Positions 2,957 to 6,755 of a stretch of DNA of 6,755 bases are shown here, in pieces. This stretch comes from Spirochaetaceae bacterium (GTDB lineage Bacteria; Spirochaetota; Spirochaetia; Treponematales; Breznakiellaceae). A model generated the notes under the pieces. It was given only the letters and a program-made list of their open reading frames with translations. It had not been told where the DNA came from and ran no database searches. Position numbers and translations under genes: made by a program. Positions within the stretch are counted from its first letter, which is position 1. Each line of letters opens with the position of its first letter. The stretch lies in the NCBI GenBank assembly GCA_031255315.1, contig JAIRSS010000273.1, positions 1-6,755 on the forward strand. The letters are read 5' to 3'.

Positions 2957-4060
2957 ATGAGATCAACCCAGGCAATCATTCATCTTGACCGGCTTGGCCG
3001 GAATATCGCGGCGGTACGGACAAAAATCGGACCGAAACCTTTAATCTGTATGCCTATAAAGGCCAACGCCTACGGTCATGGAGCGGTCCCCGCGGCCAGG
3101 GCGGCCTTAAAGGCGGGGGCCGCATATCTGGCGGCGGCGGCGGTGGGCGAAGGAATTGAGCTGCGGGAAGCGGGCGTTGAGGCCCCTGTCCTGCTGCTGT
3201 CCATCCCCCTTCCGGAAGAACTGTCTGATATGGCCGCGTGGGATCTCAGCCCGCTCATCGGCGACCGGGAATACGCGGAAGCCGCGGCCCTGGCGGCAAA
3301 ACAGGCGGGGAAGCGGCTTCCGGTACACCTCAAGATTGATACCGGCATGGGCAGAATCGGCTGTCCCCCGGAGGCCGCGGCGGAACTCGCCGTCTTTATC
3401 GCCGCCCAGCCTTCCCTCGTCCTCGCGGGAACCGCCACCCACCTGGCCGTAGCGGATTCTCAGGCGGCGGCGGACATGGCTTACACTACGGAACAGCTTG
3501 CCCGGTTCCGTTCCGCCGTTGGGGAGATACGCCGGGCGGGAATCGATCCGGGAATCCTCCACGCCGCCAATTCCGGGGCGGTTATGTTCCACGAAGACGC
3601 CTGGTTTGACATGGTACGGCCGGGGATTCTTCTGTACGGGTACGGCGCGCCGGGAAGGACGCCGGAGGTAGAACCGGTCATGGAGCTGGTTACGCGGATA
3701 ACCTTCATCAAAATGGTAAAGGCCGGCGAAACGGTTTCTTACGGCAGAACCTGGACCGCTCCCCAGGATACCCGGATCGCCGTCCTTCCGGTGGGCTACG
3801 GCGACGGACTGCCCCGGCGCTTGAGCGGGAACTGGCGGGTTCGCATCCGGGACGCTCTGTATCCCCTGGTTGGACGTATCTGCATGGACCAGTGTATGGT
3901 GGACCTGGGGCCGGACGCGGATGTCCGGCGCTGGGAGCCGGTAACGGTTTTCGGAGGCGGCGCTCCAAGCGCCGCGGACCTGGCGTCCCGGGCGGAGACC
4001 ATCTCGTACGAAATTACGTGCGGCATTACTACGCGGGTACCCAGAGTATACCGGTCCTAG
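2957..4060 (+). CDS. alr: Alanine racemase, PLP-dependent
   Basis: Alr interconverts L- and D-alanine in the cytoplasm, supplying D-alanine for peptidoglycan. The 367-residue length is normal. The N-terminal TIM barrel carries the PLP lysine K35 in MPIKANAYGHG. HLKIDTGMGRIG contains K126 and R133, at the spacing of the carbamylated lysine and active-site arginine known from Geobacillus Alr. MVRPGILLYG gives R221, expected to contact the PLP pyridine nitrogen. The C-terminal beta domain contains the second catalytic base Y262 (VSYGRTW), PVGYGDG, and the substrate-site motif MDQCM from M310. All catalytic residues are therefore present. The ATG at 2957 is the first start after an in-frame TGA at 2936-2938, and MRSTQAIIHLDRLGRNI aligns with the usual N-terminus. 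The nearest purine run (GAAGG near 2937) lies too far upstream to be a normal ribosome-binding site. It is the last GC-rich housekeeping gene before the composition changes. Confidence 0.96.
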   Translation: MRSTQAIIHLDRLGRNIAAVRTKIGPKPLICMPIKANAYGHGAVPAARAALKAGAAYLAAAAVGEGIELREAGVEAPVLLLSIPLPEELSDMAAWDLSPLIGDREYAEAAALAAKQAGKRLPVHLKIDTGMGRIGCPPEAAAELAVFIAAQPSLVLAGTATHLAVADSQAAADMAYTTEQLARFRSAVGEIRRAGIDPGILHAANSGAVMFHEDAWFDMVRPGILLYGYGAPGRTPEVEPVMELVTRITFIKMVKAGETVSYGRTWTAPQDTRIAVLPVGYGDGLPRRLSGNWRVRIRDALYPLVGRICMDQCMVDLGPDADVRRWEPVTVFGGGAPSAADLASRAETISYEITCGITTRVPRVYRS

Positions 4061-4120: not shown

Positions 4121-4139
4121 GTACAAACTCCAAAAGTAT

Positions 4140-4215
4140 GCCCGTCATTGTGAGGCGCGGCGGTTGTTGCGATCCCGCAGAGCGAAGCACGGCGGCGTGG
4201 TTGGAATCACCCCAG
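4140..4215. repeat. Probable dispersed GC-rich intergenic repeat ('GTCATTGYGAGG' type)
   Basis: The block opens with CCCGTCATTGTGAGGCG and continues through GCGATCCCGCAGAGCGAAGC to GGAATCACCCC. This arrangement resembles the non-coding GTCATTGCGAG...GCGAAGC...GCAATCC repeats scattered between genes in many bacterial genomes. It is far richer in GC than the AT-rich DNA on either side. Two degenerate halves can be seen: AGGCGCGGCGG...GCGATCCC and AGCACGGCGGCG...GGAATCACCCC. It is a single copy in this window, so its repeat nature rests on resemblance, not on a second copy. Confidence 0.5.
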
Positions 4216-4256: not shown

Positions 4257-4302
4257 TTTTTATACGGCAATGTGCAATATAGCATAAAAATCAAATTCGG
4301 AG

Positions 4303-4308
4303 TATAAT
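4303..4308 (+). promoter_or_regulatory. Alternative -10 box (TATAAT) upstream of the accessory gene
   Basis: A perfect TATAAT lies about 97 bases before the ATG at 4405, in AT-rich DNA. The -35 region at the proper distance is poor (ATAGCA or TAGCAT). The same bases overlap a GGAG...ATGATG that looks like a translation start in another frame, so the box may be chance. Confidence 0.3.
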
Positions 4309-4404
4309 GATGGAATGTATAAGAAGCGTACAGCGTCCTTGCGTTCTATGTTGTTGCATTTTGCTAAGTTTCTTGTTTAAAGAGAGGCATTCTGACTATC
4401 ATTT

Positions 4405-6755
4405 ATGGAAGAAATCCCTACTGTCCACCAGGACATCCCGCCCGCCGTTGCTGGTTTTTCGCTCGAAACCCCCATATCCAGACTGGGTTTCTCCCAACGC
4501 TCCTTTAAGGCGCTCACAAAAAGCGGCTACAGTACGGTCGCGCAGCTTCTCACCCTTGATGAAGAAGCGTTATGGGCCATCAAGAACCTGGGCAAGAAAA
4601 GCATACGAGAAATCCGTATCGTTCAGGCGCAGTTACAGCGGCAACTCAAACCGGCGGCGGTTGGCCGCTTCAAACACGTTAGCGTTCCGGACTGCCGCTT
4701 TATCTATACCAGAGAAACCATTTATCCGACTGACTATATAGGCGTACTCGACATATCCATCGAAGCCCACACCATCCTCTACAACGCCGGAATTTTTTCC
4801 GCCGGCACACTGTTCAATCTGGAAAAAGAAGCCGTTTATAACCTTGCAAAAACCACTAAAAAAATTTCCGAAGAACTCCTCGCGTTTATCGCCCGGGAAA
4901 AGCCGCTCGCCGGCAAAATATTCGGTGATGAAGACCTTGCACCCTGCCTTCAAAAAAGGACGGAAGAACGCCGGGCGTACCGAATGGCCGTTCTTGAAGA
5001 ATCATACAGCAAGATACCCCGGAACCGCCTCAGTAAACCCCTAAGCCTTTTTCTGCACGGTAAGGGCGCAAAGACAATTCGGCGAGCGGCGGCCCGCCTC
5101 TCGCCGTTGCTTACAAAAGTTAAAACCCCGGGGGATCTTAAAACGATTTTCCCTCTAGTCGCCGAAACCAGCCTCTCCGGCGATGTAATCCGTCTACAGG
5201 AAGCGCTGGCTTTCAATTTGATTGACGCGCTTAACAAAACTTTTACGCCGTTTTTTATCGACCCCCGAAACGCCGCCTCCCTTGATATTTTATACCAGCG
5301 GGCAAGCGGCTTTACCTTGCAGGACATTGCGAGGAAGCGAAATCTGACACGGGAACGCATCAGGCAGATAGAAATAAAGAGCGCCGATAAACTAGTTGAC
5401 ATCATAAAAGACTTTCCGGTCAATATACTGGCCTTTATCTGTACCGAAACGGAAAGCAGCGATTACATCAGCGCCGGTTCCATCCGCGAATACCTTGGCG
5501 AATTTCGATACAACTCACAGATTGTTTATCTTTTGGAGAACGAAAATATTTACAAAGAATACCGGTACGACAGGCGGCATGACGTATTCTATCGTGCCGG
5601 CGTTGATCTTGATCTTTTCGCCCTCGATACTACGCGGTCCGTCAAAGAACAGGCGTTAAATGAAAAGGAAGTGGAAATAGGCAAAAAGATAGAAAATCTT
5701 CTTGTTGCAAAGAACCGTGCGCCATGCGCCTATGATGATATTTGCCAATTTACTGACAGCGAAGCATGCTGCGTCCGGGTTGGCAAGATTATACAGCGTT
5801 CAAACAATATCGTGGAAATCGAAAGACGCCGGTATGTACACCGTTCGCGCATCACCGGCATTGATGAAGCCGCCGTGAAACTGCTTGCGATATTGCAGAA
5901 CCAGTTCCGGCGGTTTCACGGCTATTCAAGCAGCCGCATTTTATTTGACGCCGCGCGTAGAGACCTCGCGCTGTTTATGCACGGCAACGGTCTGGAGACT
6001 GAAGCGCATATCTATATGCTGGCGAAGCATCTTTTTTCCAAGGAAAAAATTAACGGCCGCCATTTCTATTTTACCGAAGGATTGCATATTTGGGAAAATC
6101 AAACAGGCGTCCCTCTGAACAACAAAGGTATACTAATCAATCTCGCGAATGTTTCCGGCGGCATTATTATCAGAGAGGAAGTCGAAAAATACCTGGAGAA
6201 CTTGAAAATTTCAAAAAACATAATAATCACCAAGATACACGACACATCAGACCCGACATTTTATTTTTATACCGAGACAAGCTATGTTCTTTCCAAGTAC
6301 CTTCAAATAGACGGTGTGTTTATCGCCAACGTAAAAAAAGCCCTGGACATATTTTTTGAAGGCCGGGATTACATAATACCCGAACATATAGATGAAGGTT
6401 GGTTTGAAAAGCTGCCTCAATTACCGCTGGGGCTTTCATGGAACGTGCTCTTGTTGCAGGAAGTTATCAGATATAACGAGGCTATTGGCTATAAACCGCT
6501 GTTTTCATGCGTGGAGCAGTCGCCGTATAGATTATCCGGCGCTTTTGTTAAAAAAGATTCAGCGGCTACCCTGATTGACATAATATACGCCTATACCCAT
6601 AAAAACTTTGGACTCCCCTACAGGACTTCAACGGATAAATATAGGGTACTGTTGCGGCAAGCCGGATTTATTCACGGCGCGGAATGGTTTACCAGCATGC
6701 ACAAAGTTTTTAACGACCCTCGTTTTGCCTTTTCAAACGGGAACAAGAATATCCT
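4405..6755 (+). CDS. Large accessory protein: alpha-CTD-like repeat + sigma-70 region 4-like HTH + possible winged-helix-like tail (3' end outside window)
   Basis: An open frame of 783 codons without a stop runs past the right edge. Residues 22-72 closely resemble the RNA polymerase alpha C-terminal domain, including FSQRSFKAL and IKNLGKKSIREI. Residues 111-160 (LDISIEAHTILYNAGIFSAGTL) look like a second, degenerate copy. Residues 293-330 are sigma-70 region 4-like, with FTLQDIARKRNLTRERIRQIE matching the -35-reading helix-turn-helix. From about 350 on I see helical stretches ending in beta-wing-like pieces (RRRYVHRSRI, HFYFTEGLHIW, FYFYTETSYVL), possibly repeated winged helices. There is no alpha assembly domain, no sigma region 1-3, no signal peptide and no obvious enzymatic motif. 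The ATG at 4405 is the first start after an in-frame TGA at 4393; its ribosome-binding site is weak (AGAGAGG ends 17 bases upstream). The gene is more AT-rich than its neighbours, suggesting acquisition. DNA binding and an effect on transcription are inferred; the biological role is unknown to me. Confidence 0.85.
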   Translation, partial: MEEIPTVHQDIPPAVAGFSLETPISRLGFSQRSFKALTKSGYSTVAQLLTLDEEALWAIKNLGKKSIREIRIVQAQLQRQLKPAAVGRFKHVSVPDCRFIYTRETIYPTDYIGVLDISIEAHTILYNAGIFSAGTLFNLEKEAVYNLAKTTKKISEELLAFIAREKPLAGKIFGDEDLAPCLQKRTEERRAYRMAVLEESYSKIPRNRLSKPLSLFLHGKGAKTIRRAAARLSPLLTKVKTPGDLKTIFPLVAETSLSGDVIRLQEALAFNLIDALNKTFTPFFIDPRNAASLDILYQRASGFTLQDIARKRNLTRERIRQIEIKSADKLVDIIKDFPVNILAFICTETESSDYISAGSIREYLGEFRYNSQIVYLLENENIYKEYRYDRRHDVFYRAGVDLDLFALDTTRSVKEQALNEKEVEIGKKIENLLVAKNRAPCAYDDICQFTDSEACCVRVGKIIQRSNNIVEIERRRYVHRSRITGIDEAAVKLLAILQNQFRRFHGYSSSRILFDAARRDLALFMHGNGLETEAHIYMLAKHLFSKEKINGRHFYFTEGLHIWENQTGVPLNNKGILINLANVSGGIIIREEVEKYLENLKISKNIIITKIHDTSDPTFYFYTETSYVLSKYLQIDGVFIANVKKALDIFFEGRDYIIPEHIDEGWFEKLPQLPLGLSWNVLLLQEVIRYNEAIGYKPLFSCVEQSPYRLSGAFVKKDSAATLIDIIYAYTHKNFGLPYRTSTDKYRVLLRQAGFIHGAEWFTSMHKVFNDPRFAFSNGNKNI

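Follow-up and report, generated by a model that had tools for sequence, protein, structure and literature searches.

A spirochete protein joining two RNA polymerase alpha-CTDs to a sigma region 4 probably controls or guides BREX type 4

We analyzed a 6,755-nucleotide stretch of Spirochaetaceae DNA (the window), whose last gene encodes a protein with two RNA polymerase alpha C-terminal domains (alpha-CTDs) and one sigma region 4 that probably controls or guides the phage-defense system BREX type 4. In our preferred, still tentative reading, it binds DNA as a transcription regulator specific to the operon whose first gene encodes it, BREX type 4 in its closest relatives, and grips its own promoter through its polymerase-derived modules. 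A stand-alone protein with two alpha-CTDs and one sigma region 4 in front of phage-defense genes would be a testable case of polymerase parts being reused, here to control or aim immunity. Table 1 lists the features on which the analysis rests.

Table 1. Features of the window, and loci with a strong P0152 match in front of brxP
Feature	Position	Strand	Basis
Conserved promoter-like block, 33 bp, with a TATAAT hexamer at 4303-4308	4278..4310	+	5/5 close orthologues
Conserved leader end with a likely ribosome-binding site, AGAGAGG	4382..4404	+	16/23 columns invariant
Full gene: two alpha-CTDs, sigma region 4, winged-helix array	4405..6755	+	Open reading frame; relatives
Alpha-CTD 1, residues 22-79	4468..4641	+	PF03118, Pfam
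Alpha-CTD 2 (cryptic, missed by Pfam), residues 104-167	4714..4905	+	
Sigma region 4, residues 271-338; 4.2 helix NLTRERIRQIE at 313-323	5215..5418	+	
Tandem winged-helix array and helical tail, residues ~341-753	5425..6663	+	Predicted secondary structure
Strong P0152-slot loci: L083 and L163-L167 (genomes G001, G204, G267, G416, G548, G508)			

The forward-strand frame at 4405-6753 comprises 783 full codons and runs off the 3' end of the contig; judged by the ends of its relatives, about 3 to 7 residues and the stop codon lie past the contig end. Upstream, the window holds what we take, from their sequences, to be the 3' end of mnmE, mnmG (600-2498), an opposite-strand HIT-family gene, and the alanine racemase gene alr (2957-4060). 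At the start of the gene, GC content falls from 0.60-0.67 to 0.41-0.51, a drop compatible with an island. The interval between alr and the gene also contains a GC-rich stretch (4135-4215, GTCATTGTGAGGCGCGGCGG...) that resembles a dispersed intergenic repeat.

An earlier note on this DNA had described one frame of at least 783 codons that joins an alpha-CTD-like N terminus to a sigma 4.2 motif at residues 313-323. This observation is real and was confirmed, as profile searches found both an alpha-CTD and a sigma region 4. Of the two Pfam families that the note had expected, PF03118 (RNA polymerase alpha C-terminal domain) was present, while PF04545 stayed below its curated cutoff (22.5 versus 24.1 bits); the sigma region 4 fold is nonetheless there, and PF04545 is annotated in a precomputed column for 3 of 25 close relatives. 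In alpha-CTD 1, R32, L62, G63, K65, S66, and E69 are kept in 20 to 23 of the 22 to 23 covering rows, and most of T315-E323 in sigma region 4 is nearly invariant. At position 35, where alpha presumably has a contact asparagine, K and N occur in 10 rows each. At E ≤ 1, Pfam matched neither the N-terminal dimerization and insert domains of the alpha subunit in the 783 residues nor Sigma70_r2, the region that binds core and reads the −10 element. The RpoA equivalogs listed scored 18 to 47 against cutoffs of 228 to 523. The limits of the winged-helix array were read by eye off the predicted secondary structure. In a normal RNA polymerase, alpha-CTD and sigma region 4 belong to separate subunits. 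Structure 3n97, according to its title, has the two together on UP/−35 DNA, so they are able to share one promoter.

Our searches found 31 proteins: the window protein itself, 25 relatives at 56 to 77% identity, and 5 distant ones. Thirteen of the 25 cover 100% of the query at 787 to 796 amino acids with both modules in one frame, and the fusion is therefore not an assembly artifact; the label "giant" in the earlier note does not hold up. The distant relatives (892 to 1,024 amino acids) have only the alpha-CTD/sigma part in common with the window protein. Where organisms are named (4 of the 25 close relatives), they are Spirochaetia, Spirochaetaceae, or Treponema, and our guess from isolate codes is that the relatives come from insect guts. 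Distribution is patchy: 19 of 195 same-family genomes contain any match, namely, 7 with long homologues, 1 (G036) with a fragment, and 11 in which the match is limited to the alpha-CTD/sigma part. Long homologues are present at eight loci (L001 to L004 and L036 to L039), and the L003 and L004 contigs, from metagenome-assembled genomes (MAGs) G003 and G004 with 71 to 72% homologues, stop inside the gene. Two orthologues look broken, that at L001 456-2834 by an in-frame stop mid-gene and that at L036 15964-18147 (56% identity) by a shortened C terminus.

The window contig ends at the gene, and adjacency to brxP is seen in relatives L001 (72%) and L002 (71%) only; no other relative that is at least 70% identical has its 3' end in view (2/2). 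In both, the next gene begins 6 bp past the stop. In L002 the product of this gene types as BrxP from end to end (E = 6e-219), and after it come a BrxC-type ATPase (E = 2.5e-62) and a 584-amino-acid open frame that weakly matches the C-terminal half of BrxC models; this contig ends before pglZ and brxL, with brxC and its likely second half visible. In L001, the start of the downstream gene is 96% identical to L002 brxP over 260 amino acids, and the window-type gene of G001, a MAG titled Spirochaetaceae, precedes the start of a brxP (contig C340). L002 sits in a MAG titled Tannerellaceae and may be misbinned. The earlier note's suggestion that a defense or mobile system lies beyond position 6755 fits these two close relatives, and the window's own genome may carry BREX-4 as well.

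The link between this gene and BREX is not universal, since the 38 to 39% relatives lie elsewhere and two MAGs with close homologues show no brxP. In a BrxP search of 13 genomes, G003, G004, G085, G057, G039, and G571 gave no match, and a partial one at 27% was all that G038 gave. For G003 and G004, this result either counts against the link or reflects missing contigs. Likewise, no brxP follows the gene in L036 (56%) or in L037 to L039 (38 to 39%). The L037 copy adjoins a Gfo/Idh/MocA oxidoreductase and a DnaJ-domain protein, and the L038 copy an ABC transporter solute-binding protein and a GH10 xylanase. The L039 copy has as neighbors an AAA protein and a DUF2357/PD-(D/E)XK_7 protein (L039 7713-12272), which we take to be perhaps an McrBC-like pair, so that this copy may also lie in a defense island.

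Upstream of the gene lies the conserved block. In every close orthologue whose upstream region is visible (5/5), 20 of its 33 columns are invariant, compared with 32% of third codon positions (P = 8e-4) and 25% of fourfold sites (P = 1e-5) in the same genes, the block borders having been picked after viewing the alignment. The next two stretches have 4 of 23 and 12 of 48 invariant columns, and of the 300 bp before the start codon only the last 130 bp align among orthologues. Conservation extends beyond the hexamer to the spacer upstream of it, for which a bare promoter has no need, and this hints at a protein reading the block. A pattern built from these same sites and allowed up to 3 mismatches occurred once each, in front of the window-type gene, in G001, G003, G004, and G085, the 4 tested genomes with the 5' end of the gene. 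G008 had one site with 3 mismatches, and the pattern was absent from the other 11 of the 16 genomes searched, including three with 38 to 39% relatives. In a standard promoter scan, the block did not stand out.

We infer that the protein binds this block. As at UP elements, the two alpha-CTDs would read the AT-rich minor groove, while sigma region 4 next to them would read a −35-like element, so that the protein would lie on the upstream half of the promoter without belonging to RNA polymerase. At its own promoter it might repress by blocking the access of sigma and alpha until something, such as invading DNA, titrates or displaces it; alternatively, it might present itself to the polymerase. 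The winged-helix array could add DNA contacts or sense a trigger. The domain order, the conservation of most DNA contact positions, the tight junction with brxP in two relatives, and a block found once, before the window-type gene, in each of four genomes all argue for a regulator, and the 38 to 39% relatives live without BREX as a stand-alone regulator could. Furthermore, a dedicated regulator, BrxR, is described for another BREX type (PMC9122589 and PMC9122601); it is likewise tied to BREX and defense loci, although it is a WYL-domain protein and its domains differ from those of the window protein. Against a regulator, only two loci have the brxP link, one possibly misbinned and the other with the in-frame stop, and G003, G004 (71 to 72%, contigs ending inside the gene), and G085 (56%) have no brxP anywhere. 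Moreover, a conserved promoter is possible for any gene, the 38 to 39% relatives lack the block, which the standard scan missed, and position 35 is split between K and N. Finally, a widespread, tightly coupled slot protein with varying N termini, described below, would also suit a working subunit.

That slot protein came from L083, the second brxP-bearing locus in the genome of L001 (contig C276). Here, a 614-amino-acid protein, P0152, ends 2 bp before the brxP of a complete BREX-4 (BrxP, BrxC, PglZ, and BrxL, each E < 1e-200). P0152 has 200 homologues at E ≤ 0.001; among the 120 listed, many have only about 75% of the query, its C-terminal part, in common, and single members listed carry HARE-HTH (PF05066), HTH_17 (PF12728), or AP2 (PF00847). 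In the phylum of G001, 7 of 392 sampled genomes match P0152 at E ≤ 0.001. All six strong matches (E ≤ 3e-44), which include the query's own locus, immediately precede brxP, either overlapping it or at most 5 bp away; G571 has a weak match (E = 9.5e-6) and no brxP. The slot protein of L165 contains a stretch like the end of ZorC (E = 5.5e-8), and a protein of L086 is 26% identical to P0152. In other BREX-4 loci, L084, L085, and L143 to L145, the last three from the phylum of G002, a gene of 380 to 481 amino acids precedes brxP, overlapping it or up to about 290 bp off, with no detectable relation. An archaeal plasmid and a T. saccharophilum plasmid are exceptions. BrxC appears as two consecutive frames (ATPase and C-terminal) in L002 4471-8617 and L083 10959-15177, through either a gene split or a frameshift, and as a single frame of about 1,387 to 1,402 amino acids in L084, L085, and L164 to L167.

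BREX-4 is described as the four genes brxPCZL in the part of PMC11931770 available to us. The accessible text of PMC12839542 gives as its parts BrxC, PAPS reductase, DUF4007, PglZ, BrxL, cysteine desulfurase, and a small zinc-finger protein, a list without the slot protein. Given the conserved slot before brxP, the four-gene description may be one gene short, and the P0152 family, which is large and mostly unnamed, may be an unlisted BREX-4 component with varying N termini.

The main rival, ranked behind the regulator, builds on this family: the window protein would be a DNA recognition or sensing subunit of the BREX-4 machine, in which the conserved side facing BREX is formed by the winged-helix array, and the alpha-CTD/sigma 4 portion is one of several interchangeable target-reading heads, directing modification or attack toward DNA that is promoter-like or AT-rich. 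We consider this possible but less likely. The six of six strong matches before brxP, the complete BREX-4 at the source of P0152, and the shared C-terminal three-quarters with varying heads (HARE-HTH, HTH_17, AP2, ZorC-like) all speak for it, as does G001, which has a P0152-type gene on C276 and a window-type gene on C340, each before brxP. In addition, between L001 and L002 (one pair) the slot gene is 55 to 90% identical per 120-bp window, against 92 to 97% for brxP in six full 120-bp windows (85% in the last 41 bp); such fast change is compatible with selection on a recognition part as well as with gene exchange. The occurrence of the 38 to 39% relatives without BREX stands against a subunit. 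So does the comparison of the window C terminus with the P0152 core, for which homology is not claimed, the similarity being only suggestive. AlphaFold models of both proteins are chains of winged helices, the top Foldseek rows overlap (UFL1, SelB), and the predicted helix/strand order of window residues 420-753, read by eye, runs like that of P0152 292-588. The best hhalign score was 35.1, compared with shuffle maxima of 28.0 (40 column shuffles) and 23.1 (60 within-structure shuffles); however, the probability was 6 to 19%, and the two matched pieces are colinear only if the window protein has some 160 extra residues between them. The broader proposal is that BREX-4 has an unrecognized winged-helix slot component before brxP whose head is exchanged between lineages, RNA polymerase parts here aiming or triggering phosphorothioation-based defense at promoter-like (e.g., phage) DNA. 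This we regard as rather doubtful.

Comparison with known systems bears on both readings. PglW of type 2 BREX, as far as its description in PMC12839542 was seen, resembles the window protein in that three winged helices come after an alpha-CTD-like domain, which favors a subunit, and weak PglW-model matches occur at window residues 14-87. In contrast, a NERD nuclease and kinases precede this part of PglW and an inactive STAND domain follows it, with no sigma region 4 in that description. The window protein starts its alpha-CTD 1 at residue 22, has no kinase or nuclease Pfam match at E ≤ 1, and scores 25.5 bits against the PglW equivalog cutoff of 990. The P0152 family shares with the window protein's relatives the same slot, the tight spacing, and, in one modeled member, winged helices, whereas its L083 member has no alpha-CTD or sigma region 4 by Pfam. 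MzaA of the MZA system is a defense protein with sigma 4 similarity; its model NF041931 matches window residues 301-330 (E = 5.7e-5), but helix-turn-helix alone is in common (score of 22 versus a cutoff of 800). A literature search, with most subscription journals and bioRxiv outside its scope, found nothing relevant on such a domain combination.

In a further, unlikely reading, the protein has no partner genes in the window's genome or regulates an unrelated neighbor there, and the BREX link seen in L001 and L002 arose recently and does not hold generally. The non-BREX settings of L037 to L039, the missing brxP in G003, G004, and G085, and the HAD hydrolases, ABC transporter, and WD40 protein beside sister proteins are what such a reading would predict, yet the BREX-linked copies (72 and 71%) resemble the window protein far more than the non-BREX ones do, and the window has the upstream block in common with L001. 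Least probable is the earlier note's idea of a decoy or anti-activator that competes for many promoters of host or phage with RNA polymerase: the UP element and the −35 box are indeed what the two modules contact, but a patchy gene with a block that is single copy in the 4 tested genomes with its 5' end (host and phage promoters being outside that scan) suggests a local rather than genome-wide role. The note's overall interpretation is thus partly supported, in its defense link but not in this part.

Sister proteins with the same arrangement, an alpha-CTD, sigma region 4, and a long C-terminal part, occur in 11 genomes of the same family. Most have two alpha-CTDs, and their frames span 636 to 1,155 amino acids, some of them cut. 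Nine gave a profile match over residues 5-412 (E = 1e-55), and P0027 to P0031 (sources ena and lgn) with two Enterococcus proteins gave one of 99.4% probability (E = 5e-22); unlike these shared parts, the C termini of both groups match the window protein weakly or not at all. Where examined, the sister neighbors are HAD hydrolases, an ABC transporter, a WD40 protein, recJ, and sua5, a mixture from which it follows that the architecture is not confined to defense. At L046 9385-12834 (1,149 amino acids), a HAD hydrolase is fused before two alpha-CTDs and sigma region 4, adjoining an ABC transporter, and L042 and L043 have frames about as long.

The Enterococcus plasmid proteins annotated "Sigma factor-like helix-turn-helix DNA-binding protein" (WP_171918273.1 and WP_002362439.1) are likewise large, with sigma region 4 before a long C-terminal part, although the L119 protein has no alpha-CTD by Pfam and only its sigma 4 stretch aligns significantly with the window family. 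Of 53 plasmid records matching the distant relative P0030, 49 are from Enterococcus, two of which were examined in detail. In both (L118 7380-13075 and L119 7299-12974), the sigma 4 protein is followed by a hypothetical protein of about 405 amino acids and a DEAD/DEAH helicase, which in L119 matches ZorD and DpdE models (best E = 5.8e-18), and this three-gene cluster is a possible defense system.
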